From: Chrysoporthe austroafricana
Lineage: Eukaryota > Ascomycota > Sordariomycetes > Diaporthales > Cryphonectriaceae
Assembly: GCA_001051155.2 (NCBI GenBank)
Contig: JYIP02000012.1
Location: forward strand, 1-64,000
Direction: 5' to 3'
Length of the DNA stretch: 64,000 bases
Program-made: the position numbers and the translations under genes
Shown: positions 30,216 through 54,480 of the stretch, in pieces
How positions within the stretch are numbered: the stretch's first letter is position 1
Layout of the letters: the number at the start of each line of letters is the position of its first letter
Notes under the pieces: model-generated
The model's input: the letters and a program-made list of their open reading frames with translations, nothing else
Database searches by the model: none
What the model was told of the DNA's origin: nothing

Positions 30216-30746
30216 ATTGCTTATTTATTTAATCGGTAAATATTTATTATATTCGGCAGAAAAATATAATAATTTGCTATTTCAAAAATTCTTTGCTGCT
30301 ATGCTTATCTTTCGTAATACTGCTCTGCTATTTTATTTCGAATTATTTGCTAGCTTGCTAATTCGGAAATAGCTATTAATAATATATTTATATTTATTAA
30401 AAGATTAAAAAAATAGCTTTATAAGCAAACGGATAGCTATTTATATAAGGATTAATTTATTCGTACAAAATGCAATAGTAATTTCGTATTTTATTATATT
30501 GCTAATTAATAAAATAGCATTTTTAGCAAATAAAGTTATTTATTTAAATATTATTAAGAAATAAAATAAAATTGCTTAATAAATCTGAAAATCGGAAATT
30601 TTATAAGTTTTATTATATACAATAAATATTAAATAAGCTTTAAATAATACGAGCGATAAATTATTACTATTTATTTAGTATTTAATAATATAAAATAATT
30701 AAATATATTAAAATTTTATTTGCTAAAATGCTAAAATAGCATTCTT
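30216..30746. repeat. R2 repeat, 3' part, copy 4
   Basis: Matches the last about 530 bases of R2 (from the GGTAAATATTTATTATATTCGGC block, equivalent to 11,160) and leads into R1 copy E. Confidence 0.75.
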
Positions 30747-31291
30747 TATATAATATATAATTGAAAATAAAAAATAAATAAATAAATTTAATTAGCTATA
30801 TTTGAAATAAATATTTATAATATATAAAAAGAAAAATTTAAAAAAATAACAAATTTTAACTTTTTCTCTTATTTATTTTATTAATTTATCTTTCAATTAA
30901 AAATACGAATAAGTTAAAAATAATATAGAAAATTCTTTAATCTATTAATTATTTAATTAAAATTCCGAATTAAAATTAATATAAAACCTATTTCGTTTTA
31001 ATTAATTATTTCAAAAAATAAAGCTTGCTCTATTAATTTTCTAAATAAAAACTTAAGGTTTGCAATTGCAATACTTTTAAACGTTATTTAATTCTTATAT
31101 TTAAATATATTATAGACTATATTGGATAAATAAGAGATCGAATTGAAGCAATACAAATACCTTGAAAAACGGGTTAAGTATAGTTTATACAATTTCAAAA
31201 CGATCCTTTACCCCCGGTTTTTACTAGCGCTAAATTTTTGCCCATATAATAAAACTATCCTCTACCTTGAAAATACTTCTACTTAAAGATA
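30747..31291 (+). repeat. R1 terminal repeat, copy E
   Basis: The last R1 copy. Its end, ACTTAAAGATA at 31,291, is the exact right border of the AT-rich block; GC-balanced HET sequence follows with no spacer. Confidence 0.8.
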
Positions 31292-33118
31292 AGTAGCGAA
31301 TTGCGCCGTACGCGTATTAATGCTTTCCACTAGCGCCGATATATAGCGGTTTCCTATACCTAAGTTGCTTCTGAGTATAAAAACGAAGCAGCTAAGTATT
31401 ATAACGTCGAGGAATGGGACAACTACTATACCAGACCTTCGGAAGTCCGAGACTGCATCTTGGATTACGCCTTCCACTATATAAATTACATTCGCATTAA
31501 GCTCTCCTCGATCGACCGAATTTGCATTTATCAAGATATATGCAAACCTGCTTCTTGCACCCGCTACCCTTAATGCATCCAGAACCGAAAAGCTATCCAG
31601 ACTATAGACTTTGTCTATTATTGTAGCAAGCACCTTATCGCATTGCTAGGCCGTTTACTGCGGGACGAAGCTAAGCTGCATATTCTAGAATAAGTTCTCT
31701 CAGAGAGACTTATCCAAGACGGATCCGAACCTCGGCTCTCGGCGAAAATTATATTTGACGAGGCGAGAGAAGCGCTGCGGATGTTCCATAAAGTCACGCA
31801 GGACAAATAGTAGGGCCGCGCCTGGACTTTTCAGGAGAATTACTGTAGTACAATGCGGATGCAGCTATTGATCCGATACTATCTTTTACTAGAGGCTGTA
31901 AAGTTGCGTACCCAGGTATTTGGCGAGATACCTGGCAAGCAATATATACAATCCGTTGCCTTTTCAATACAAGCGATACGTCTATGCGTAATATTCCGCC
32001 GCGCAAATGGCCTAATACTGCCGGAAGATGAAAGCTTAATCCAGGAAATGCTGCAAGCGGCTGAGAGGTATGCGCTTATGCTAAGCGATTCGAATATTGT
32101 TCTTCTCCATGAGAAGTAACCCGGCCAGCTCGAGCGCATCGACATCGGCATGCTAGACGGCCTTGTCTACGGGTTTCACAAAGACGAAAAAGACACTGAA
32201 AGGATCGATAGCTCTTATGTCTGGGAGATTTCCACACTCCCGGGTAGTGGGGTATAGCTTCAGAATCACCTTACGGCGGATTACCAGACCAAATTAATCC
32301 CGGGTGAGCTATATATATATATATATCACTTGCTCCGGCCCAGGGGTGAGATCAATTTATGGGACTGGGGGGCGACGCAAGAGTATGCGGGTACTGAATT
32401 GAAATCTCGTGCGCTATGTAGTAATAAGAGTCTACTGGCTCTTATCCTTCTTCCAGCAGCCGGGATCACTTTCAAGGCTGTTGAAGCAGACGAGCCATTT
32501 CCTGAGCGTTTAAAATATATTAGAGGCGGGGGTTCTCATGTTACTTACGATATTATTGCTAATGTAATAGAGCAAAATTGGAGATATGCGCAGGAGCGTT
32601 TCCGGGTAGCTATGAACCGCGTATCACCGAAGCCTATAACACCACAACAGAGAGTGCAAGTAGTACCTACCGCTATATATACATACGTCCGTTAAGCCGA
32701 TTCAGACATAGATACTAATTGTCAAAGCGCGGCCGCACCAGTATTAGATATCGAGATCATACAAGCAGCACCCCGCAAAGGCTTCGAGGCCGAGATAACA
32801 GTGAAGGTCACCTACCGAGTCGCGAGTAGGGCCGATCCACTGGTGCCGCTGTCACTTCTACGGCTAGCAGGAGAGAAGATGGGTAGAGCAAGAAGACGAT
32901 CGCCTACGCTTTTACGCTAGATGTTCTCCGATGAAAGTTTCCATGTGAAAGTAGGCGAGCACGAGAGGTTTGTAAGCTTTCGGCCCGGCGAGTCGTGGGA
33001 GAATAAAACTTACTACTGGAATGTCTTTCCGGATGATTTGAAGCACGGAGATCGGTTCAAAGTTGTCTTCAAGGGAACTACTATCGACTGGTGGGACTGG
33101 GTGGAGAAGCAAGGCTAG
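31292..33118 (+). pseudogene. HET-domain pseudogene, 5'-truncated, stop-riddled
   Basis: HET proteins trigger the cell-death reaction after fusion of incompatible hyphae. One frame runs from the first base after R1 copy E to 33,118 without frameshift. It holds YIAVSYT*VASEY (the Y.ALSYTWG block), SSIDRICIYQ (LWID.ICI.Q) and K**GRAWTFQENY (RWW.R.WTFQE), the three hallmark HET motifs. The C-terminal part reads FEAEITVKVTYRVASRADP and ends in WWDWVEKQG. About ten in-frame stops (near 31,331, 31,361, 31,571, 31,691, 31,808, 31,811, 32,117, 32,255, 32,693 and 32,918) fit CAA, CAG, CGA or TGG hit by C-to-T/G-to-A change. Sequence upstream of the HET core is replaced by the repeat, so the 5' end is missing. 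Non-functional. Confidence 0.88.
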
Positions 33119-33499
33119 TAAGCAGCTCTATGCACTATCTCTGCAACCTCGTCCATATAACCTCGGTGCGAGTAGCCTCTTCCATTTGCGAGGCTACACT
33201 GACACTCCTTCCTCGCCTTGTGCCAAGACAATGGTCACTTTGCCTGATGCGTTTGCTGGAAGTGTGCAACAGCCCCCTGATAACGATGGCCGGTCGAAGA
33301 TTGTGGTTCCCGCAACAATATTGGGGAGTTCACCTGGGAGCCAGAGCGCGCTATATAAGTTTCAAGCATCAGTAATAAGCTCTTCGCAAGAAGACTTGTA
33401 GCGCTAGTCGCAACGCGCTGGTGTTTATATCCTTCTGGGCTGAGGCGTATTTGACAATGTTTCCTTTTTGTAGCATGACTTAGAAGGAAGACCTATCAG
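33119..33499. other. Intergenic, no gene seen
   Basis: GC-balanced sequence between the HET pseudogene and a small minus-strand ORF. Overlapping short open frames exist in two plus frames but resemble nothing known. Confidence 0.5.
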
Positions 33500-33754
33500 T
33501 TAAGTTGCACGGTTCTGTTCTTTACCGGTTTGACATGGATCGATACAGATTTGTTCAGGGTTCCTCTTGCGGCTCTCTAAAATCCGTACCAGATTGCAGT
33601 AGTAGGAGCTCTTTTTATCTTCATTAATCCAAGACAAGGGCTTTGTTTTGATAATTTCATCGTCCTTATCGACGAGAATATTTTCCATTTGCTCTAAATC
33701 GCAACTCGAGAAGCGACTATTTCCAATGGAAGAGTGATCGTGGGTAAAAGACAT
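33500..33754 (-). CDS. Possible small hypothetical protein, about 84 aa
   Basis: An ATG at 33,754 in good context follows a pyrimidine- and CA-rich stretch typical of a fungal leader. The product is hydrophilic (MSFTHDHSSIGNSRFS..., middle DKDDEIIKTKPLSWINEDK), with no signal peptide or membrane segment. The frame is open a further 37 codons upstream. No family recognised; it may be a fragment or chance frame. Confidence 0.3.
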   Translation of the reverse strand: MSFTHDHSSIGNSRFSSCDLEQMENILVDKDDEIIKTKPLSWINEDKKSSYYCNLVRILESRKRNPEQICIDPCQTGKEQNRAT

Positions 33755-34290
33755 AGTGTTAGTGTGAGGTAAGGAAAATATAGAGAGAGCGCAGCGAGAA
33801 ATAAGCCGGAGAAAGCTGGAGAGAACGGGACAAAGTGAGAAAGCGCAGGACCTGATGGTCAACAAGAGATCAGCTTGAAGGAAAGTCTAATAGACCTCCT
33901 GTATTCGCATTAGGGCCTGCTCACCCTTATAAGCAGGTTTTTCCCTTCTAGCATCAGCCGCATCATGTCTGGTTCAAAAAAGTACGGAGAGATACTCGTT
34001 GTTGTGAATTACATTCACCGTTTACCGTTTGCTGCTCCCCGTTTCCCACCTATACTTTTTATGATTTCAGGTACTTTTTCTCGACAATATTAGAAAGTTG
34101 CACAATGAAAATGATTATCGGTAAAAGAACTCTTTATTAAATAGACAATAATAAATATAAATATATCGGACTCAAAGGTTAAGTATATAATCATTACAAT
34201 TGGATCCGGATTGATGTATTTCTGTCTCTATTGAATCGGCCTGTTCTTGTAGCCTGTCCGTCCTCAAGTCATAACCACCCTTTTCACTTA
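33755..34290. other. Intergenic, no gene seen
   Basis: Contains the presumptive leader of the small ORF and the 3' flank of the four-domain gene. A short AT-rich stretch lies at about 34,120-34,200. Nothing else recognised. Confidence 0.5.
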
Positions 34291-34307
34291 CTAAACACTA
34301 CTAAAAA

Positions 34308-37300
34308 CTAAAAGACTCTGAATATTAACCCTTCCAAACCCCTGCCGTCGCAACAGCTCCCTACCCGGTGGACCGGAAACTCCGCCACAACCATAACATT
34401 TACCTGCTCCAAGCCCACCCCCGCCTCACCCAACAACCTTAGCACCGCACAAAGCGTCTTCCCTGTAGCAAGCACATCATCCACCACTACCACTGACCCA
34501 CCCTTACGAATCACACCCAACTCCATCTCCATCCTCTTCCCGCCCTCACCTCCACCAACTACACCTGAGATATGCGACGTCTCCTTGGCCACTTTAATCG
34601 TTGGCGGCGGCAACTTGCCTGCCTCACGGATCAGCGCCAGGGGTACATCCACTCGCGCCGCCAGTGTAGAGGCATAGACAAAACCGCCAGCCTCGATACA
34701 CGCTATTGTGGAGATTTGAGCCCAGTCGCCGGTGAAGTGGGTTTGCAGGAGGGATGAACAGAGGTCTAGCCCGCCTGGTTGCTGGGCGACGTTGAGGATA
34801 TGGCGGAATTCGATACCATGCCGGGGGAAGTCAGGGATTGGGCGGGCCATGGCAGCTAAGTGTTGGAGGGATGGTTGAAGGAGGGGAAGGAGACGGGATG
34901 CCGCAAAGATTTTGGCGGAAGACTGTCCGCGAGTATTGTTGAGGAAAGTGAGGCTGGGGTGATGGTCCAAGGCACTGCTGCTGTCCTTGTCGTCCTTGCC
35001 GTAGCCCCCCCGGCGGACTAGTCGCGTCTCTTGGCTTGCTTCGATGCGAACTTCGAGAAGTCTACTATCTGGCACCAAATGCGACAAAGCCGCAACAGGC
35101 GCCTCATCTCTCATGCCCGTAATGAGCAGCACATCCACATCTGCGGCGCCATAAACGACATTCAGAAAATGTTCCACTGGCAGTCTAGGCCGTTCCTGTA
35201 TCTGATGCTTGAAGAAAGTCGTTAGTGCCGGTCGGTGTTGTTCTTTGTAGGCTCGGTCCCATAATAGACGGTTCAAGTCGGCGCCAGTATCTGCCGCGTA
35301 TTCGCGCTTAGTCTCTTCGCTAATGCTGACTGTACGTGCTGTGAGGCTTTCGTTAGCGAAAACAGATACCCAAACGTCGGCGCAATAGTCCTTGCCGGCG
35401 CCGCTTTCGCCTGTGATAAGGGTGATAAGCTTCGGTTCCATCGGCGCTCTCGGGAGTGGGCAGGCGTAAGCCAGCACATTGCGAGGGTCCAGGCTGTGTT
35501 TGAGACGGACCAGGCGGGCGAGATTCGGTCCAAACGCCTTGGCCGCCAGCGCGACGTCTCGGGGATCTGGCCCGAGGTCAGCGCTGTAGGCCCCGTTGCT
35601 CAAGGGCAATAACTTCCCGGCGACCTTGTAGACCCAGCTTACGGCAGCTGCAGCGGCTTCGCTTCCATCTTGATTGCGAGGCCAGACACCAGTTATTACG
35701 CAGGCAAAGTCCCAGTCTCGATAGCTGAAGGCGGTGGAATTTGCTGCCACGTCGTTGACCGCTCCGCCGCCTTGTAGCAGATGGAGATAGCAGAGTGGAG
35801 TGGGACGCATCTCAATAGCCTCCACCAAGATGTCTACGATGATGGCTTCTCCGATATTTTTCAGAAACAAGCATCGCTTGAAGGAGGACGTCTTTTGGCC
35901 GCCATGCCCGCCGTGCATTCCGGATATATATACCTCGGTCTCGAATATACCGACGCCGTCCATAGCCTTGAAGCTAGATTGAGGTCCTAAAATTGTAGAT
36001 ATCGGTGTGGGCGTTGGTATTTCCAAATTGGTTCCAGTTGCGGATGATTCAAACATGGTTATGCCAAGATGTAGCCGGTTGTTGTCCCAGTAGAGGTACG
36101 CATCTGCAGAACAGTTCCGGGGTAGATCTCTGGCGACAGATCTGTCAAACTCGCCGAGCTTGAGCCGCGCCTCGGGCCTGTCGCTCAATGGGACAACCCA
36201 GTTCCGAACCGAATATGTTGGAGCCGCATAAGTCTTGAAGGTAACACTGACCACGATGCCAAAATTTGTCCCGGCGCCCTTTATGGCCCATAACAGACTG
36301 TTGTCATTCAGGCGCACGGCACCAGCCGGCCGATATTGGCTTGGCACACGGCCAACGCTGAGAACCTCTCCAGAATCGACGCTGACCACTACGGCACCAA
36401 CAATAGCATCGCACGCAAGTCCGTACAACCTAGCCAGATGCCCGATACCGCCTTGTAACCACAGCCCCGCGCCAACGCTTGGGCGAGCCCCCAGGGGCAC
36501 CGTGAGACCCACTGCCATAGTTTTGCGGACGATATCCCCCGTCTTGCAGCCGGCCTCGGCGACGACTAGGGAACCAGAATTGAAACCCTCCACAGCCGTG
36601 AGAATATGCACTTGATCAAAGGCACCCATGTCAACCGCGACGACATTAGGCCAGAGACAATGGTCGCTATGACCTCCGCCGACAACAGTCAGCCCGACAC
36701 CGTGCCTCAGTGCCCATTGGACGCACTCTTGGACTTGTCGGACCTCTTTTGGCTTCACAATCGCGGTAGGACGGTAGAGGCGAGCCTGACTATTCTTAAC
36801 CATCTTATCACCATTCACCAATTGTGCCTCCACTGTTAGCTGTGGCAACGCGGTCGCATGTCGGGTGAAGGCCGCCATGACGTGGGGCACGCTGAATAGG
36901 AGATGGTCTCGATGGGCTGCCTCAGAACGGCCCAAGGCACGGCACACGTTGCGCCACTCGGCTCGAATAGCCTCGTCCTGCGTATCAAAACCCGCGATAA
37001 AACGGGTAAGGCAGTCCCGTGTCTCGTCGTCATTTGCCACGGAAACGACACCAGTAGGGAAAAAAGCCGTTCGATGGCACACTAAACCGTCGAGGTGCAG
37101 ATCGTCTCTATGGAAAACCACCACCAATCCGTCTCTCGGTTGCTCAACAAGCATTGCTAGCGCCCGTTGGATGAATCTGTATTTGGGATTCATGCCGTAC
37201 ATACTGTGGCAGAAAAGGATGACATCGTATTTCTCCTTGTCATCACTCGTACCGCATGCTGTGTTGCTGTCGAGAGCGAATGGAAATCCACGGATGTCGG

Positions 37301-37688
37301 GCGGGCGATTCATACAAGGCAGAGGGGACTCAGTTTGCGAAGCAGAGCAAAGCCATTTCCCCAAGCTTGAAGCATACAAGCCATTCGGCTCAAAAGCGGC
37401 GTATCTCGTTATCTTGCGTCTCTGCTCACTGGGTAAATACCCAAGTACGCTCTTTGGGCCGGGTCCGATCTCTAGCACCGAGATGTGGATGCTCGAGGTG
37501 AAGAGAGGGCTTAGCACCTGGGATAGTTGTGGGATGATGAAGTCTTGGTAGGACATCCAGCCTGGACCCTGCACCAAGGTATCGAAACCAGCGCTGTATT
37601 GTGTATCGGACAATGGCTGCTTGGGCAATGACGCCATTGCCCCGGCTTTCTGCCTAAGGGCCAGCTTGAGAGAGTTGAGAGTTGTCAT
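34308..37688 (-). CDS. Four-domain protein: methyltransferase, FAD oxidase, P-loop kinase and APRT-like
   Basis: A single 1,126-codon frame without introns; ATG at 37,688. Residues about 40-290 look like a class I methyltransferase: SVLEIGPGPKS at 70-80 is the SAM-binding loop, AAFEPNGLYASS the acidic loop. Residues about 302-750 are a PCMH/berberine-bridge FAD oxidase: GGGHS at 337-341 with the flavin-linking His 340, LWLQGGIGHLARLYGLACD at 409-427, LLWAIKGAGTNFGIV, and the BBE tail RLKHSLDPRNVLAY. Residues about 753-900 match the metazoan-type phosphomevalonate kinase fold: P-loop GESGAGKD at 760-767, RLLWDRAYKEQHR and LLITGMRDEAP. Residues about 945-1,108 are adenine-phosphoribosyltransferase-like: DFPRHGIEFR, GKLPPP and PRPP loop VVVVDDVLATGKT at 1,066-1,078. 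Each module is known alone; this order is not one I recognise. It could build and modify a purine nucleotide, but substrates are unknown. The last 18 residues look frame-shifted (see findings). Confidence 0.9.
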   Translation of the reverse strand: MTTLNSLKLALRQKAGAMASLPKQPLSDTQYSAGFDTLVQGPGWMSYQDFIIPQLSQVLSPLFTSSIHISVLEIGPGPKSVLGYLPSEQRRKITRYAAFEPNGLYASSLGKWLCSASQTESPLPCMNRPPDIRGFPFALDSNTACGTSDDKEKYDVILFCHSMYGMNPKYRFIQRALAMLVEQPRDGLVVVFHRDDLHLDGLVCHRTAFFPTGVVSVANDDETRDCLTRFIAGFDTQDEAIRAEWRNVCRALGRSEAAHRDHLLFSVPHVMAAFTRHATALPQLTVEAQLVNGDKMVKNSQARLYRPTAIVKPKEVRQVQECVQWALRHGVGLTVVGGGHSDHCLWPNVVAVDMGAFDQVHILTAVEGFNSGSLVVAEAGCKTGDIVRKTMAVGLTVPLGARPSVGAGLWLQGGIGHLARLYGLACDAIVGAVVVSVDSGEVLSVGRVPSQYRPAGAVRLNDNSLLWAIKGAGTNFGIVVSVTFKTYAAPTYSVRNWVVPLSDRPEARLKLGEFDRSVARDLPRNCSADAYLYWDNNRLHLGITMFESSATGTNLEIPTPTPISTILGPQSSFKAMDGVGIFETEVYISGMHGGHGGQKTSSFKRCLFLKNIGEAIIVDILVEAIEMRPTPLCYLHLLQGGGAVNDVAANSTAFSYRDWDFACVITGVWPRNQDGSEAAAAAVSWVYKVAGKLLPLSNGAYSADLGPDPRDVALAAKAFGPNLARLVRLKHSLDPRNVLAYACPLPRAPMEPKLITLITGESGAGKDYCADVWVSVFANESLTARTVSISEETKREYAADTGADLNRLLWDRAYKEQHRPALTTFFKHQIQERPRLPVEHFLNVVYGAADVDVLLITGMRDEAPVAALSHLVPDSRLLEVRIEASQETRLVRRGGYGKDDKDSSSALDHHPSLTFLNNTRGQSSAKIFAASRLLPLLQPSLQHLAAMARPIPDFPRHGIEFRHILNVAQQPGGLDLCSSLLQTHFTGDWAQISTIACIEAGGFVYASTLAARVDVPLALIREAGKLPPPTIKVAKETSHISGVVGGGEGGKRMEMELGVIRKGGSVVVVDDVLATGKTLCAVLRLLGEAGVGLEQVNVMVVAEFPVHRVGSCCDGRGLEGLIFRVF

Positions 37689-40311
37689 GTTAGCTGGATT
37701 GCAGCCTATAGGTTCATCTGTTGATAGACTAAAAGAAGTAAGAATTCAATTCAAGGGCTGCCAAGAGAAGATTACCAGTGCTAATGCATCAGAGCATTAC
37801 TATTTAGACTATACCTGATCGGTCGCATAACTATGGATGTAATCCGTCAGAGTCGTTCAACAGTGGACTCTAATTCTGTTGTGTGCTGCGTCGGGACATG
37901 TCACATAAGCCATTGCTGGTTATTCTGTGGGTCATAGGCGAGCTGCATCGCGAGCCGGAGTTTGTAACCGACACGCGTGAAACAACCGTCACTTCCCGAA
38001 AGCTCACCACAGCAACAAGATGCGCAATCTTTCGCTGGCTGGCTCTGAATATGGGCGTCGTGTATGCTCTCACGGTTACACTTAATTTCTTCGTTGGAGC
38101 CGTCTCCCGAACAGCGTAACGAGTTCGCCACTAGGCTCCTGATCTCGCGGCCTTGGCGCTTGATGTCGAACTGAATATAAGAGACTTGCTGCTAGTCGAG
38201 GCGGCCAGGGCGTCGAGATAATCATAGACGCGCCACAGTCGCAAGTCAAAACACGAGGGGGAACTTGTGCTTTGCACCTATGGTGTGCTACGTGGTGGTC
38301 TAACCCGTGCTGCCAATAAACGTTTTGCAAGGGCGCCTCCACCTAGGCGAAATGCCTGATCCAATGGACTAAACCGAAGTTGTAATCACATAAGCTTTAC
38401 TACTGCGGCTTGCGACAGGCCGCTTCCTATCGCATCTAACAAAACCTTGTCTATCAAGGAATCCATTTAATGCTAGTTGAACGGAGGAGTGTTATGCAAT
38501 GCCTTAAAGAAAAAGTATTAAGAGAGGTGTTGATTGGGCAAAGGACAATCGAGATCGAGGCTAGTAGATGATTCACGAGAGATGCAAGGGATTTACGGTG
38601 GCTTACTCGAGATGTACTGTCTTTGTCATCTAGATATAATTATCAGTAGCACACATCGGCGGCGACGGCATCATACATTCCCGTTCGCTACGTTATGTAG
38701 TTAAATGATTTTTACCGAGAAGCAAATTTCGAATTGTAAAGAATATGCAAAACGAGACCGCGCAACATACACACAACATGTTCTAGCGTCAACATTTCCT
38801 GTCTGTGATGCAGAAGAGGGCATATTAACGGTCGCAAAATATATTCAAATTGATGATCTCCCGATAACCGCAGGTATTCTGATGCTTCTCCTGCCTAGCT
38901 ATCTGGCCCACCGTTAGTCTCCCTTTGATGAAGCAATAGACACCAATCCAAAGATAGCTTATGCCAGCTTCGAGAAACCATGAGTCTGTGGGTAAATTCG
39001 TTGAGTGACACCCTGTTTGTATTCCATCCCTTGTCATACCGCTCAAACTGTATTCCAAGCTAGTAATGCCCTTCATGGACATCATTGCTTCTTTAATTGA
39101 TCGTCCAAATCAACTTCAAGTCCCAGGACAATTTAAATCGAGCCTTTGTTTGCCGCGTGATGTATATTTCAACGCACAGGCCTTCGCGTCCTCTGGATGG
39201 TGTATAATTAGTTCTTTCACTATTATAAGACTTTTGCCCCCGTCCGCTCTCCGCTACAGCAGGCCAAATCGTTTCGAGGAGCATATATTTACTTCAGCGG
39301 TTCTGAAACTCACAGTTATCTGAGACGTCTTCGTCCGACCCCGTTGCTTCAGACATTCAGTCACTAATAGATTCGGATATTATATTTTAGTATACTCTAG
39401 ATACCTATCTATTTAGCGCGACATGATTAAGATCATTATCCAGACATTAACGCACGCTGAAGTAGGTCCAGTAGCACGCTTCTAAGTGGCGACAAATTTA
39501 GCTCTTTTCCGACATTCCCTTCCCTAACGTTTTAAATACAACACTAGGGACCTATTAAGTCACTTGGGTCGCATTTCCTCTATATGCCTTATAACAGACG
39601 CGCGGGAAAAAACATAGCAACCAGCACCCTAACCCTAGCTATTCTATGCTCCTATAGAACTACGAGTGAGCTTCATACAGCCATTCTCGTTCTCTTTTAT
39701 ATTAGACAAATAGAATTCTCTGTACTCATTCAATTCTTCCCTTCCCGATAAGATGCCTGTTTTTCCTCAAAATGGTTTGAATGGCTCTTGGCTCATTGTA
39801 AAGATTGGCTGCTATCGTTAGAGCATTCTACGAAAGTCAAGCCGCTAAGCCTATTTTAAACTGCCCTTTCTTGTGTTGCATCGCATTGATATATGTCTTT
39901 CGCTAAGGAAAGTAGCAGTCCAAGGCTGGCGGCGTAGTATGGGAGATCATTCACTTCCAGCTGAAGCGTATAATAGCCTGAGTCCGCTAGATAGTCATGA
40001 AATTTAGATGACAGTCAAATCAAAACGGTCTTATGAATTGCTATTTTGGATACTCAGGTGGTGCCAAACTGTGTTACTTGCACCTAGCCAATCGCATACT
40101 ATATTTATTCTAATGCAAATATAAAGCTTTCTTTTCTAAGTTTTACATAGTAACGGCAAGGTTTATTGCAAAATATGTTTCGAAAAAAGCTCGATTTCTT
40201 TTGGAAAAGCAAGATTGAATTACTTTATGGACGAATTTTTGCACTATTCCTATTAAAAGCGCGAATCTCGGCAATTCTTAAGAAGCCAAAGCCTCGTTTA
40301 CTGGTTCATAC
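37689..40311. other. Long intergenic region, no gene recognised
   Basis: About 2.6 kb between the divergent start of the four-domain gene and the 3' end of the peptidase gene. Short open frames occur on both strands (for example 38,705-38,917) but none shows a motif, signal peptide or sensible splicing. It is moderately AT-rich without the extreme skew of the left block. Confidence 0.5.
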
Positions 40312-42234
40312 TCAATGCGCCGATTTCGCGGTAGGTAGATCTGCAAAACCAATGGTATAGCTCCAGCCCATTTCAATAAAGATATCTGCCCAGGTCGCGT
40401 TAGTATACGGCTTAACATCAAGTTTACAAACGGTCCCATTCTCCGGCATCGTCAGGTTCGACCAGTATGCCACAGTATGCTCGATGGTGCATCTTGATGG
40501 CGCAGCAAGGGAGGTATGCTATTATTCAAGGCAGCTATAGTTAGCTGATGAAACTATGAAGAGGTAATTAGCAGGCAACAACTTACACCGTAACCATGTA
40601 TCTCCAGAACAACACTCCCATTCAAACCCGAACTCACGTTGCGTGCGGAGGCAAGCGGCGTCACGGGGTCCCAGGTATTGCCCAGGATGAGCACTGGGTT
40701 CGCAGTATCCACGTCAAACCCGCCATCATACCGCTCCTTTGGTTCGATCAGCCACTGCGCGCAGGGCATGTTAATAAAATCGCTGCCGTCGCCGAAGATT
40801 GCGCTGATGCTGTAGAGCCTTTCAATTACTTGTTGGAACTCGGCTAGGGTAGCGGCGCGTGGCCGCCGGTCGGAGCAGTGGATGGCGACGAGGGCCACCC
40901 GCCCAGCTAGGATGGGCGCTAGGGCGGCCTCGGTGTCGGAGACGGCGCCCGCCGCAGAAGCGCTCAATGCGGTGAGCTCAGTAGTGCTAGCAGCGAGGAA
41001 GGTCGTAAGGACTGCGGCCAGGCCAGCCCAGGTTTGTGGTGCGTAGAGAGCCGCCCAGATCTGGCTCTTGGCATTCCAGTAGTCGTACACGATGTCACCA
41101 TACGGCAGCGGGTTGGCCTTGAGGTATTCGAGGAGGTCCCAGGTGGCCTGCTCCATCTGGTCGGCTGTCATGTTGAGCGAGTTGAGGGAGCAGTTCTTGC
41201 TGGCAGCAACGCAGGTCTGGAAGATTTGGGAGAAACTCTCGTCTGAGCCAGTCCACTCCTGGAAGTCGCTAGAATCATTTAGGAGCATCAGTATTAATAT
41301 TTTAACCATGAACGAAGAGAGAGAGAACCTACGCAAGTGCCATAATACTCCCAGGGATTCTGGACGCCATCCAAGATCATCTTGTCAATTTTGTCTGGAA
41401 ACATAGCAGCCACAGTGGCACCGAGTGTCGTACCATACGAAAGGCCTATTCGCGCTTTAGTATCACATACACAGACTTTGTATCACGGTTATTAGTTTTA
41501 CCCCAATAACGCAACATGCCGTCATCATCCAGAGCTTCTGCTATACTGATGAGATCCCGCGCCGTGAAGGCGGTGCTCACCAGGCTTCCATTAACTTGTG
41601 CATTCTGGTAGCAGAGGCTGGCGTCTACCCCAGCCCGTGCCCAGAGAAACGCTGCAGAATTGTCTGAGGAATTGCTGGTCTGACTCCAATCGGAGATGAA
41701 GCGGATGTCTTCGACTTCGTTCGAGAAGCAGTTGAGGCTGAGGGTGCTCACAGATCCACTAATGCAAGTCAACATTGATGCCGTGACTCGCAATCTTGAT
41801 AAGGCCAACCACAAACCGCACGTCGAAGGAGACCAAGTCATATTCGCCTCCGGTCATTCTTGATATCAACGTCAGCCTGCTTCGTGCAAAGTAATTTCCA
41901 CGAGAGAAACCTACGGAAGTATGTCTGCAACGGCTGTCGCAAAGTTCGACCTTGCCGGCTCGCCCGGGCCACCAAAGTTGAACAGAATGCTACCTTTTCT
42001 GGGCTGCGTGAGAGCCGGCGTTCTGATAAGCTGCAATTGGAGCTGCTCAAAGCTGTTGGGTGCTGTGTAGTCGAGGGGGACCATGAGGGTGCCGCATTCC
42101 AGATTTGTCACATAAGTATTATTGAACTCTGCCGGGTCGCAGGGCGTCCATTGAATGCTCTTGGACCTACAAGTGAGGGCGTCGGCGGCGCCGAGCAGCG
42201 CAAGAGCTGCACACACGGGTCTGAGCACGTCCAT
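40312..42234 (-). CDS. Secreted serine peptidase, tripeptidyl-aminopeptidase (TAP) family, six exons
   Basis: Exons 42,234-41,915, 41,858-41,817, 41,758-41,502, 41,445-41,333, 41,258-40,587 and 40,518-40,312; five GT-AG introns of 56-74 bp. The joined frame is 536 codons with stop TGA at 40,312. Residues 1-19 (MDVLRPVCAALALLGAADA) are a signal peptide, so the ATG at 42,234 is chosen over one 26 codons upstream. The alpha/beta-hydrolase core shows ILFNFGGPG (oxyanion loop), EYDLVSFDVRG, the nucleophile elbow GLSYG with Ser209, and DKMILDGV. The TAP-like C-terminal domain has NTWDPVTP with Asp441 and HGYGHTSLA with His469, so the triad is complete. Several N-x-S/T sites fit a secreted glycoprotein. 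Likely cleaves short peptides from N-termini outside the cell. No break seen. Confidence 0.88.
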
Positions 42235-45801: not shown

Positions 45802-47270
45802 CTAATCCGACTCTCTCCATAGCCACTTCTCAAAGTCGGGAACATCAAGGTGCACAGGCTTCTCGGTCATGACGCTCGACCAATCGTTGGAATAAGAGCC
45901 AAAGATCAAGTGTTTGGTCGGATCCTCCATGTACGCTTTGGCCTTCTGAGCTGCCGGGCTGTCTTCGCCCTCACACTCGACCCGTGCCCTGTACTCTCGC
46001 CCTGCGAATACACTTGCTCGAGCCTGGTCCCCGTGAGCAGCACCGATCTGGAAAGCGACGTAGTAAAGCCTCGTCATAAGCGAAGTTGCCGCGTATCCGT
46101 ACTCCCTCTGGAGGGCATGATGCAGGTTGTAGCAAACCCCGAGACTATATAGCGGGTCGCTCCTGATGGGCTCTAGATCACAGAGTATGTTATCCATGCG
46201 TTCAATATCGAGGCGCCGAATGTCACTCAAGATTAATTCATTCGCCGGGCCAGTGCAAAGGTCACAGTGGCATTGGAACCCAAACGACTCGTTCAGCTTC
46301 GCCCAGCGACGGTCCGAGGGCTGGGCGATATCGTAGCAGACTAGGATCTCCTCCCCGACCAAAATATTCTTGAGTGCATGAATCGTCTCATGCTGAGCGT
46401 CTCCGTTCCAGTTGTTATGGGCATTCGGGATGCAGCTGTGATTGAGCCGGGCTATGTCGAAATAGATGCCGCCGGTAGTGGAGTCCGAACCGCAACAGAA
46501 TGCATTGGTATTCATAATTCCAGCTAAATCGTGCTGCCCCGGCTGCCCCGGAAAGACGTTGTCAAGAGAGAGGAATTGGCGGTGTTCGTCCCTGGATCGC
46601 GCCTGGGCCTTCCCGGCGATCGCCTCGTGAAGCTGTTGATTTGGTATGCTCTCGAGGGTAAAGGGCTTCTCGCTGATGATTCGTGTACCCTTTGGGATGT
46701 GAACTTTGGCCACCAGTCCCTTGCCACGGCCCGGGATCTCCATTACTTCGTACAGTCTTGTTGCCGTGGGGCCAGGCGTATTGCTCCGGGCCGTGTTGGA
46801 ACGGTCGACCTGTACAGACTCTGGCTCAAGGGTACTCTGCAAAAGCGATTAGGTGACAAGACTGGAGGCCGAGCGGGGGCCATTCTTACCCGATCGTAGG
46901 ACTTGATCGAGGTATGGACGCTGGCCCAGTCATAGAAGCCGTGCTGGTCGGCATCATCCTGCCAGGCCCGGACGCGAGCGCCGAACGAAGCCTCCGCCAG
47001 CGCTGTCACCTGCTGAATATAGGCCTTAAGCGCAACTCTTGTTGTAATGCCTCCAGAGATGTTTGAACTAAATCGTAGGAACTTGCGTCCTTCGATAGGC
47101 AGTGAAAGCTGGTCGCCCAACTTGAACGTCACAACACGTACACCGAACTCGACACTCTCGTTACTGTCAAAGACCAGCCTTACCGCATCGATAAATTGCG
47201 CCCACCTGAGGCTATCTTCAGTTCCCCGTGATACTCGAGGAACCAGATCGAACCCAGCATTGATAGTCAT
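45802..47270 (-). CDS. SET-domain protein (fungal SET5/SMYD-like), two exons
   Basis: Exon 1 47,270-46,890, a 53-bp intron (GTAAGA...GCAG), exon 2 46,836-45,802; 471 residues in frame. The SET domain lies at about 158-325: GRGKG at 163-167, GTRIISEKPF, RLNHSCIPNAHNNW from 257 (the cofactor-binding NHS motif), GEEILVCYD at 288-296, and a post-SET zinc cluster FGFQCHCDLC at 314-321. It should methylate a lysine, probably on histone or another protein. The C-terminal about 145 residues are helical, as in fungal SET-only proteins. Exon 1 gives a 127-residue N-terminal region with no motif I recognise. All catalytic landmarks are present. Confidence 0.82.
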
Positions 47271-49393: not shown

Positions 49394-50695
49394 ATGGCCG
49401 AGCAGCAAAATGACGAGCTGTGCAAGACTTGTCAGGGCATCTTTGGATCCTTTGATGGCTGCTTCAATCTGCGAGCAGACATTCAGATACACCTGAGCTA
49501 TGATCAACTAAAAGCCAGCGAATTAAAGGGTTGCCCGCTATGTAAAACCCTGTGCGACAATACGCCATTGGCAGCAGCCAAATCAAAATGGTGTCTATCG
49601 GTTACACTCGGAGAGTCAGGTACTCCAAGATGTAATTGTGATCCTCTGGCAGGAACATGGGGCAATGAGAATAGCAAGTCCAAAACACAAATAGAAAACT
49701 GGTTTCCTTCGGAGTGCCACTCGAAGGCCGGAAGCGAACACAACGGAAACAAAGCTCTTGATTCGGGGGGTTGAGGATGATTCGAAGAGCCACAGCGAAA
49801 ATCACTCTCACTCTGGTCCTCAAAAGCATCCCTTTGACGGTTACAAAATCCGGACACTCTTGGCCAAACTGAAAGTTGATGGGGAAGAAAAGAAAGTAAA
49901 ATTCCTAGTAACAGCACCGGATAAGGGTAGGATCTCTTCATTCTCTTGCTCCTAACTTCTGGCCGTTTTCCAGATATTTGTTCTGATGATTTCAAACTAC
50001 CTAGAGAACCCGGCAGCAAGTTTCGTGGAAGTCACACCAATACTCACTAACTTTAGCGACGTGCAAGTCCATAAGCACGCAAAGACGTAGCTGGAGCGTT
50101 GCCAGCATCAGTGCGAAAAGTGTCCAACCTACCAGGCATGCAAGAACTCGAAAGAAGCCTGCCGCTGGGGTAAACGCTGCATTGCAAGCGTTGCAAAGAG
50201 CGTGACGCATGTAAATGCACCTCGGAATGCCGGCTGGTCCATTCAAAATGTCGGAAAGATCTTCCGACTCTACCAAAAAGAATTGTATCTCTCGATAATG
50301 ATAAAATCTGGCTACATGAACCTGACAAAAACGCCCAACGTTCTGAATACATTGCCCTGAGTTATTGTTGGGGCAAAACGGAGCAAAGGTACCAGACCAC
50401 AAGTGGGAATCTGTGCTGTGGGGAAAAGAGCATTCCAATAAACTTGCTGGAGCTGTCGCTACAAGATGCCGTGAAATGCGTGAGAGAATTGGCCTCTGAT
50501 ACCTCTGGATTGGTGCTCTCTGTATCAAACAGGATGACAGCGAAGACAAGAAGGCCACCATCAGGGAGATGAAGGACATCTTCGAGAATGCTACGATTAC
50601 TATCATTGTGGAGCAGGCGGGTGCGGTATCCGACGGTTTCCGAAAGTATCTCCCAGTCCCTCCGACATACCAATTGCCATTCTACTATACAAATC
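49394..50695 (+). pseudogene. HET-domain pseudogene, 5' part
   Basis: ATG at 49,394 opens a Cys-rich start typical of HET proteins (ELCKTCQGIFGSF, LKGCPLCKTL). After frame changes it continues with CRLVHSKCRKDLPTLPKRIV, then SEYIALSYCWGKTEQRYQ (from 50,345; the HET core), INLLELSLQDAVKCVREL, and in another frame [18 protein letters not shown] (about 50,499) and [21 protein letters not shown] one-base loss within GAGAGAATTGGCCTCTGA separates the last two blocks, and the TGA beside it is where CGA is expected. The frame ends in a transposon relic near 50,695. Non-functional. Confidence 0.85.
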
Positions 50696-53467: not shown

Positions 53468-54480
53468 ATGAAGATGAATCCAGTCAATACTAAGTCATAT
53501 CAGCTTCCAGCTGATGCTACCTGGTTCAGTATGGATCCCCCATTGCTTCTGTTAACGAGGCTAATGTCGGAGTCGCAGTTACCGGGTGCTCTAGTGGCAT
53601 CGGTCGTGCCATCGCAGAGCTCGTGGCCAGCAAGCCCGGCCAACGTCTCATCGCTACGGCCCGAAACCTTTCAAGCCTGTCATACCTTGCAAACGACGAT
53701 GCCATTCTCAAACTGACTCTGGATGTCGCGTCACCCGCATCAGTTGAGAAGGCTTTCAAGGCGGCGGCGGACTACTTTGGGGACAAGTTTCATATCGACG
53801 TTCTCGTCAACAATGCCGGGTACGAGCTGGCAGGCGACACAGAGGCAGCTACTGAGGAGGAAATGCACAACCAGCTCGAAACGAATTTCTTCGGCACCGT
53901 ACGCGTGGCCACAAACGCCACGAGAGTGATGAGGCAGTCCAAGGACCATCGCGGCGGTATCATTTACAACATCTCCTCGCTCGCCGGCGTGGCCGCCTTC
54001 CCCGGCCAGGCCTTCTACCACGCAAGCAAATTTGCTGTGGAGGGCTGGTCAGAGTCTTTCGCGCGAGAGTTGAACCCAGACTGGAACAGTGAGTTTACTG
54101 TTGTTTCTTCACCTGTAATCCTGGGTTGACTTCTTGTTCTCTTCGTGGCAGTCAATATCTGCGTTGTCGAGCCAGGCGGTGTGAAGACAAACTTTGAGCA
54201 CGGCAGCAAGAAGTATACCAAGGTTCACGAGGCCTACGATGGGGCCGACATGCCCGCGCGTCAGCTAGCTGCCTGGGTGAAAAAGGCCGCCGCGGCCGGT
54301 GGCGGCGTCCCGCCTTCCGCCGTGGCTGAAGTGCTGTGCCTCGTGGCCAACCGAAACGACAAAGTTCCACTCTGGTTGCCTTTAACTAGCGGGGCCGCCC
54401 ATCTGATAAGGATGAAGTCGCAGGCACGCCTTGATAACTTAGAGGCGGTGAAGGAGCTGACTCCCATTGACAAGAAATAA
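53468..54480 (+). CDS. Short-chain dehydrogenase/reductase (classical SDR)
   Basis: Main frame from 53,530: the Rossmann motif TGCSSGIG, VLVNNAGYELAG, IIYNISSLAGVAAFPGQAFY with the catalytic Ser, and YHASK (catalytic Tyr and Lys) in FYHASKFAVEGWSESFAREL. A 63-bp intron (54,089-54,151, GTGAGT...GCAG) is followed by NICVVEPGGVKTNFE and the C-terminus to TAA at 54,480. All catalytic residues are present, so an NAD(P)-dependent alcohol/ketone oxidoreductase of the 17-beta-HSD-like type. The start is unclear: either ATG 53,468 with a 47-bp intron 53,483-53,529 (weak donor GTCAAT), or ATG 53,531 with one base missing from a C run at 53,538. The first is used here. Confidence 0.8.

Follow-up and report, generated by a model that had tools for sequence, protein, structure and literature searches.

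A four-module fungal gene from Chrysoporthe austroafricana belongs to a conserved Pezizomycotina family whose gene tree conflicts with fungal classes

The gene considered here lies on the minus strand of a 64,000-nucleotide stretch of Chrysoporthe austroafricana DNA (the window), which forms the beginning of contig C4. Positions 34308–37688 hold one unbroken frame of 1,126 codons without a stop, the product of which joins a methyltransferase-like module, a FAD oxidase of the BBE type, a P-loop kinase of the animal phosphomevalonate kinase (PMVK) type and a module like adenine phosphoribosyltransferase (APRT). The protein belongs to a family found across the Pezizomycotina, in which the gene tree contradicts the fungal classes and sequences from different classes are highly identical; these two observations are new here. 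We assign a probability of about 0.55 to the reading that the protein is a cytosolic four-module 'pathway in one chain', encoded by a stand-alone gene that has probably moved horizontally. Its features are as follows, with conservation counted over 121 sequences (the window copy and the 120 relatives described below).

34308–37688, minus: single open reading frame (ORF) for the four-module protein (uninterrupted frame, and full-length relatives with PF04275, PF00156 and PF01565)
36789–37688, minus: N-terminal methyltransferase-like module, residues 1–300 (weak Methyltransf_23 match; motif LEIGPGP at 72–78)
36354–36770, minus: FAD-binding (PCMH/VAO) domain, residues 307–445 (PF01565, 5.5e-15)
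36666–36680, minus: GGGHS with the predicted flavin-attaching His340 (His in 120/121; aligns with SGGH of 6-hydroxy-D-nicotine oxidase, 6-HDNO)
36483–36485, minus: Arg402 (121/121), at a position that is Cys in chitooligosaccharide oxidase (ChitO), 3rj8 and PpBBE-like 1, and His in 6-HDNO
35466–35543, minus: BBE C-terminal segment, residues 716–741 (PF08031, 21.2 bits against a cut-off of 20.6)
35073–35417, minus: P-loop kinase of the animal PMVK type, residues 758–872, with P-loop GESGAGKD at 760–767 (PF04275, 2.3e-23)
34383–34793, minus: APRT-like phosphoribosyltransferase domain, residues 966–1102 (PF00156, 4.7e-20)
34680–34694, minus: altered pyrophosphate loop EAGGF, residues 999–1003 (DSRGF or DARGF in APRTs)
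34455–34493, minus: phosphoribosyl pyrophosphate (PRPP) loop VVVVDDVLATGKT, residues 1066–1078, conserved over the 121 sequences
34303–34365, minus: family C-terminal tail in another frame (three-frame translation; tblastn of P0001 residues 1143–1163, 95% over 21 residues at L001:1555–1493)

No other frame in the 64 kb exceeds 350 residues (with ATG, GTG or TTG starts), and the plus-strand translation of the same interval is riddled with stops. The G+C content of the ORF is 0.61, 0.46 and 0.60 at the three codon positions, and its composite index of repeat-induced point mutation (RIP) is negative. The initial annotation had the coordinates and the 1,126 codons exactly and left out the strand. 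The motifs that it quoted are all found, with IGPGP near residue 75, GGGHS at 337–341, GESGAGKD at 760–767 and the PRPP loop at 1066–1078, and its proposal of four modules in one chain is borne out: the Pfam search that it recommended places FAD_binding_4, BBE, P-mevalo_kinase and Pribosyltran above their cut-offs, and the methyltransferase match is weak in the window copy. The gene also appears to be intronless or nearly so, as had been suggested, since the family start MATLDSLK aligns to the window ATG and the genes of some relatives nearly fill their contigs (P0109, of 1,156 residues, leaves 352 bases spare on a contig of 3,823). A full-length structure model, with a predicted local distance difference test (pLDDT) score of 51.5, is too poor to define domain packing; the PDB matches shown for it are BBE-type FAD oxidases (best 1.9e-10).

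Relatives were sought among 5.8 billion proteins, of which 7,989 candidates were scored (those sharing most words with the query, at 0.55–1.75 times its length, a filter that fragments of closer relatives could escape). At E ≤ 0.001 this gave 1,117 relatives, and the 120 that were listed are analysed here. These have 1,110–1,404 residues and are 66–72% identical over 94–100% of the window protein, and every one of them carries PF04275, PF00156 and PF01565 as precomputed domains. When 13 family members were scanned at E ≤ 1, FAD_binding_4, BBE, P-mevalo_kinase and Pribosyltran were each found in all 13. Far from being peculiar to the window locus, the four-module protein thus has at least 120 listed full-length relatives. 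Organism names are attached to 41 of them, covering Lecanoromycetes, Sordariomycetes, Leotiomycetes, Dothideomycetes, Eurotiomycetes, Geoglossomycetes and Orbiliomycetes, together with one genus of uncertain class; the initial annotation's suggestion to look for the same order in other fungi is answered by the FAD, kinase and phosphoribosyltransferase domains shared Pezizomycotina-wide. The closest known proteins are unnamed ones from this group (for example from Glonium, Hyaloscypha, Lachnellula and Aspergillus cristatus), similar in length and with the same three precomputed domains; the window copy differs from them in being diverged and in having its C-terminal end out of frame. Database labels for the relatives include 'phosphoribosyl transferase domain protein', 'adenine phosphoribosyltransferase' and 'FAD-binding PCMH-type domain-containing protein'.

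The parallel suggestion to look in bacteria produced no counterpart: a pattern search of bacterial and archaeal genomes returned 134 matches and no multi-module protein. The one relative among them is an APRT-like stretch in a metagenome-assembled genome (MAG) of Spirochaetaceae, 33% identical over residues 944–1105. In viral contigs 53 stretches fit the pattern and none is a relative. A literature search for this family or for proteins built like it, mostly through titles and the openings of abstracts, found no paper on it among those listed, and the family is apparently a conserved and widespread one in the Pezizomycotina without a described function in the literature found. One member, P0107 (Rutstroemia sp.), has a complete GTP cyclohydrolase I domain (residues 79–254) ahead of the four modules, which may represent a merged neighbouring gene or a genuine five-part fusion.

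The window copy stands apart within this family. Its host is Diaporthales-like, as an RPB2 exon of the genome shares 90% identity with Discula destructiva, 81% with Cytospora and 80% with Diaporthe, all of them members of that order. Twelve RPB2 clusters at 86–91% reveal that the protein database includes close kin of the host. The nearest listed relative of the four-module protein, however, is only 72% identical by BLASTP (74% over aligned columns), and the window copy is uniformly 68–74% identical to all 120. Since close RPB2 relatives are present and the best four-module match is so distant, the gene is probably lacking or strongly diverged in the host's close relatives, an indirect argument that supposes their genomes to be complete in the database.

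The window copy lies on a long branch (0.37–0.38) and bears marks of past constraint. Columns constant in at least 99% of the 120 relatives are changed in 10 of 260 cases, compared with 120 of 190 variable columns, so that change is about 16 times rarer in the constant columns. This supports past selection. The ratio of changed shares (0.061) ranks eighth among the 121 sequences, where the median is 0.020, and the share of changed constant columns is the highest of all 121; this copy thus seems to be less constrained than is usual. Two of the ten changed constant columns, 1109 and 1110, fall in the C-terminal tail, where the last ∼19 codons of the window ORF are read in a different frame from the relatives. 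Over 21 residues the peptide encoded by the family's frame still matches P0001 at 95%, and the shift is therefore recent or an assembly error. The statement that the gene 'keeps every motif' is true of the motifs quoted and fails for these last codons. The accompanying idea of 'selection or recent arrival' stands in its first part as past selection, and in its second is no more than plausible, with the nearest listed relative at 72% although close relatives of the host are in the database.

A competing interpretation, for which there is a real case although we put it below even odds, is that the window copy is entering decay: its C-terminal end is frameshifted, and the DNA next to it is AT-rich and RIP-like. 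The shifted tail, the long branch and the top share of changed constant columns are all as expected of a decaying copy, and RIP indices are positive at 24–32 kb. The 1,126 codons without a stop and the 16-fold protection of constant columns argue the other way, as does the conservation of the shifted tail, which points to a recent or artificial shift.

The case for horizontal movement comes from a maximum-likelihood tree of 42 sequences (the 41 named relatives and the window copy) over 1,163 columns. Class labels were looked up for Trichoglossum, Venustampulla, Sarcosagium, Monosporascus, Orbilia, both Hyaloscypha and Icmadophila; the remaining class labels, and the orders used for RPB2 other than those of Discula and Cytospora, are taxonomic background. 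The fungal classes are mixed in this tree, with five changes each for Lecanoromycetes and Leotiomycetes, four for Dothideomycetes, three for Sordariomycetes and two for Eurotiomycetes. A single clade with 100/100 support unites Hyaloscypha variabilis, two Geoglossomycetes, Orbilia, Venustampulla and Icmadophila, and so combines four classes: Leotiomycetes, Geoglossomycetes, Orbiliomycetes and one lecanoromycete. Approximately unbiased (AU) tests on the 42-sequence tree reject monophyly of the eight Leotiomycetes (p = 9.6e-5) and of the 11 Lecanoromycetes (p = 9.1e-5). Repeated on 23 sequences, they reject the grouping of the two Hyaloscypha (p = 6.6e-4, a test picked after the first tree was known) and that of six Leotiomycetes (p = 1.4e-92). 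This smaller set was hand-picked for long contigs and the absence of a MAG label. It omits the window copy and 18 of the 41 named relatives, including the non-MAG lichens Xylographa bjoerkii and Puttea exsequens, both on contigs longer than 100 kb, the second species of Gaeumannomyces, Monosporascus and Lachnellula, and one Aspergillus. There is thus good evidence that the gene tree conflicts with the fungal classes.

Identities between classes can be high. Trichoglossum, a MAG, shares 90% with Venustampulla, 88% with Lasallia and 84% with Orbilia; in pairs free of MAGs the values are 87% for Glonium and Lasallia, 85% for Monosporascus and Lasallia, 85% for Venustampulla and Lasallia, and 83% for Venustampulla and Orbilia. 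RPB2, by comparison, is 67–82% identical between orders within the Sordariomycetes over its first 830 residues, and 75% at full length between Trichoderma and Sordaria; these controls are all Sordariomycetes by name, which makes the clock comparison with cross-class pairs an indirect one. Even the Asp/Asn/Lys-rich linker can be aligned across classes, with a mean identity of 64% (range 47–87, 61 pairs from 12 hand-picked sequences). Because the gene tree contradicts the classes and the highest cross-class identities exceed those of RPB2 between orders, horizontal spread is the likeliest explanation, and the gene has probably moved between fungal classes.

Vertical descent under unusually strong constraint, with old duplications and losses producing the tree conflict, seems to us rather unlikely. 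It would account for the clustering of class labels above chance (13 changes, where the minimum is seven and shuffled labels average 26.1) and for the single clade formed by the two Geoglossomycetes. The window genome itself, moreover, has both the intact gene and a methyltransferase-only relic of the family at C20:3099846–3100079 (L002:1504–1767; 60–65% identity over up to 90 residues), which shows that more than one copy can be present. Vertical descent fits poorly with cross-class identities of up to 90% (87% without MAGs) that exceed those of RPB2 between orders of one class, with a linker alignable across classes, and with the position of Orbilia inside the mixed clade.

The genome has 23 matches to DUF3435, which we take to be the Starship captain type; 21 are above the cut-off, and in-frame stops, which may be introns or damage, interrupt 16 of them all. 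None lies on contig C4, and a Starship on the window contig is not supported. Nothing element-like was seen among direct and inverted repeats at 30500–40500. The C20 relic adjoins a Tc1/Tc3-like transposase fragment that scores below the Pfam cut-off, and a weak, sub-cut-off DUF3435 match lies at C20:3105568, ∼5.5 kb away.

In the oxidase module, FAD_binding_4 scores 55.7 bits against a cut-off of 26.4, and the nearest solved chain is 6-HDNO. With 6-HDNO and the BBE-like oxidases EncM and ChitO the family shares the FAD domain, the GGGH flavin histidine and the BBE C-terminal segment, and it differs from them in being embedded in a four-module chain and in having Arg402 where ChitO has Cys. 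Outside the 13-member scan, the BBE segment was found at E ≤ 0.01 in one of three other members. Both domains are above their cut-offs and the flavin His is present, and oxidase activity is predicted; with Arg402 in place of the Cys of ChitO, a single covalent flavin attachment is predicted. PMC11375781 treats the second, Cys-linked attachment as typical of BBE-like oxidases and not universal.

The kinase module matches P-mevalo_kinase at 82.8 bits (cut-off 33.8) and has the P-loop kinase domain and the K/Y/K/R/R positions in common with the animal PMVK structures 3ch4 and 7xnd. Lys766, Asp767, Lys794, Lys815, Arg819 and Arg860, each present in 121/121, align with K, D, K, K, R and R of 3ch4, residues that we take to bind phosphate. 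The P-loop KRKSGKD of PMVK is replaced by ESxAGKD in the family, however (x is mostly Cys, and Gly in 16/121), and the second Arg of the PMVK RR pair by Asp. The score against TIGR01223, the animal PMVK equivalog, is 29.8 bits, far under the 188.15 required. A GHMP-type ERG8 is present on contig C12, matched in three pieces that are each under the whole-protein cut-off, so the mevalonate step has no need of the PMVK-like kinase; together with the TIGR01223 score, this speaks against a mevalonate role. The initial annotation had remarked on the oddity of a metazoan-type kinase beside the GHMP enzymes normal in fungi, and the separate ERG8 agrees with it, as does the genome scan, which found no PF04275 match beyond this gene.

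The methyltransferase-like module is the least securely placed. Methyltransf_23 covers residues 57–181 of the window copy at E = 0.06, with 13.5 bits against a cut-off of 27. It appears at E ≤ 1 in 10 of the 13 members scanned (best 3.4e-5), and the scores shown in other scans, 18.1–19 bits, are likewise under the cut-off; among methyltransferase-only pieces of the family it appears in five of six (best 1.1e-5), and among the 120 listed relatives only P0120 has PF13489 as a precomputed domain. The S-adenosylmethionine (SAM) loop motif LEIGPGP is nearly constant over the 121 sequences. Comparison of the module with solved structures by sequence and profile gave no relative and only chance matches. 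A low-confidence model of the module alone (pLDDT 44.7) is at most suggestive of a methyltransferase fold, the 50 Foldseek matches shown being mostly SAM methyltransferases, none at E ≤ 0.001. An NCBIfam cobalt-precorrin-5B methyltransferase match in five of the six pieces (best 0.0012; in the first member 16.4 bits against 399, over 37 residues) was taken as chance.

The APRT-like module finds its best NCBIfam match, among the 25 of 34 shown, in adenine phosphoribosyltransferase (1.4e-26), with 93 bits against a cut-off of 125, and solved APRTs match it at 1e-16 over about 150 residues. It shares with APRT the DFPxxGIxF segment, which we assume to lie near the adenine site, and the PRPP loop, in which Asp1070 is present in 120/121 and Asp1071, Gly1076 and Thr1078 in 121/121. 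It differs in the pyrophosphate site, where the loop Arg is Gly (Gly1001) in 121/121 and the Lys of the APRT RK pair is Glu in 115/121. The best-matching solved APRTs keep both residues, as does L004, a second APRT-like gene of this genome, which reads DARGF and RKKGKLP; this casts doubt on the transferase step. The domain likely binds PRPP or a nucleotide. The earlier proposal that adenine is loaded onto PRPP accordingly retains its PRPP loop and, with the pyrophosphate-site residues replaced, is unproven.

We propose that the N-terminal half of the protein would act on a small nitrogenous or purine-like substrate, methylating and oxidising it. In the C-terminal half, the kinase would phosphorylate a phosphate group of the substrate, and the APRT-like domain would bind PRPP or a nucleotide, acting as a modified transferase or as a substrate-holding handle. 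The gene would survive on its own after inter-class horizontal movement. Of these points, the single frame, the placement of the domains, the motifs conserved through the family, the past constraint on the window copy and the conflict of the tree with the classes are observed, and catalysis, the substrate, the order of the reactions and horizontal movement are inferred. A pairing of methyltransferase with BBE-type oxidase is coherent by analogy with the ergot alkaloids, in which 4-dimethylallyl-L-abrine arises by N-methylation. This compound is oxidised by the BBE-like enzyme EasE, described in PMC11375781 as having a bicovalent flavin, and PMC4249865 calls the endoplasmic reticulum-targeting signal of EasE crucial in yeast. 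The likeness is one of function only, between separate proteins in the ergot case; EasE is placed among the BBE-like kin by description, without sequence comparison, and no homology is claimed for the methyltransferase. SAM, ATP and PRPP occur in the cytosol. Attachment of the flavin through a single His would be well suited to an enzyme working there, in contrast to EasE.

Several results weigh against the proposal of a horizontally moved pathway in one chain. In the window copy the methyltransferase match does not reach its threshold, the APRT pyrophosphate-site residues are lost, and the share of changed constant columns in this copy is the highest of the 121 sequences. Class labels cluster above chance, many cross-class pairs are just 72–78% identical, a level attainable by vertical descent, several named sequences are MAGs in which contamination is possible, and contig C4 has no DUF3435 match.

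Two other roles for the APRT-like domain can be set beside the proposed one. In the route of the initial annotation it catalyses the union of PRPP with an adenine-like base, after which the kinase would form the diphosphate, and methylation and oxidation by the N-terminal half would yield a modified nucleotide. We consider this unlikely: APRT is the best-matching phosphoribosyltransferase family, the DFPxxGIxF segment and PRPP loop are kept, and an enzyme forming a nucleoside monophosphate followed by a phosphate kinase would be chemically coherent, but the altered pyrophosphate site, the APRT score below the NCBIfam cut-offs shown and the separate APRT-like gene speak against it. Alternatively, the domain could be a regulatory sensor of PRPP or nucleotides, as in bacterial PurR, steering the other three activities. 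A PRPP loop kept beside replaced pyrophosphate-site residues and a weak match to the purR_Bsub model (3.3e-4) would agree with this, while the retained DFPxxGIxF segment and the far better match to APRT make it improbable as well. An artefact of gene calling or assembly that fused neighbouring genes, which the possibly merged model of P0107 might bring to mind, can be dismissed, as the window frame is uninterrupted DNA that owes nothing to gene prediction, and the 120 listed relatives, drawn from several sources, show the same chain.

Multi-gene clusters are the usual unit in which fungal pathways travel. It is a tentative extension of the proposal, and one we would not yet favour, that a self-contained pathway in one intronless 3.4-kb gene is spreading horizontally among filamentous fungi of different classes as a 'one-gene cluster', with a purine-like metabolite that is phosphorylated, methylated and oxidised as its product or its substrate. 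If so, a single four-module gene, conserved across many fungal classes and with a tree at odds with the species, would offer a compact mobile pathway amenable to testing, and many lichens and moulds would be expected to contain an undescribed metabolite. In the APRT-like domain, the pyrophosphate site, altered yet constant, poses a specific chemical question.

The gene lies beyond a sharp compositional boundary. Positions 1–31000 of the window are very AT-rich (17–36% G+C), with a shift to 44–56% at about 31–33 kb; the AT-rich part, in which the RIP indices, measured from 24 kb onwards, are positive by the usual thresholds, contains tandem arrays with periods of 179–458 bases at 2.6–4.5 and 11.8–12.7 kb. 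Scans of the window for Rfam families and tRNAs were empty. The following neighbours were recognised.

40557–41384, minus: TAP-like hydrolase, gene or fragment
45805–46848, minus: SET domain protein, gene or fragment
50174–50569, plus: HET-domain fragment
53515–54126, plus: short-chain dehydrogenase, gene or fragment

Between the AT-rich block and the gene, the interval 31400–33401 has normal G+C content and no ORF of 200 residues or more; two ORFs of 121 and 112 residues there have no Pfam match, and the interval may be a decayed gene.

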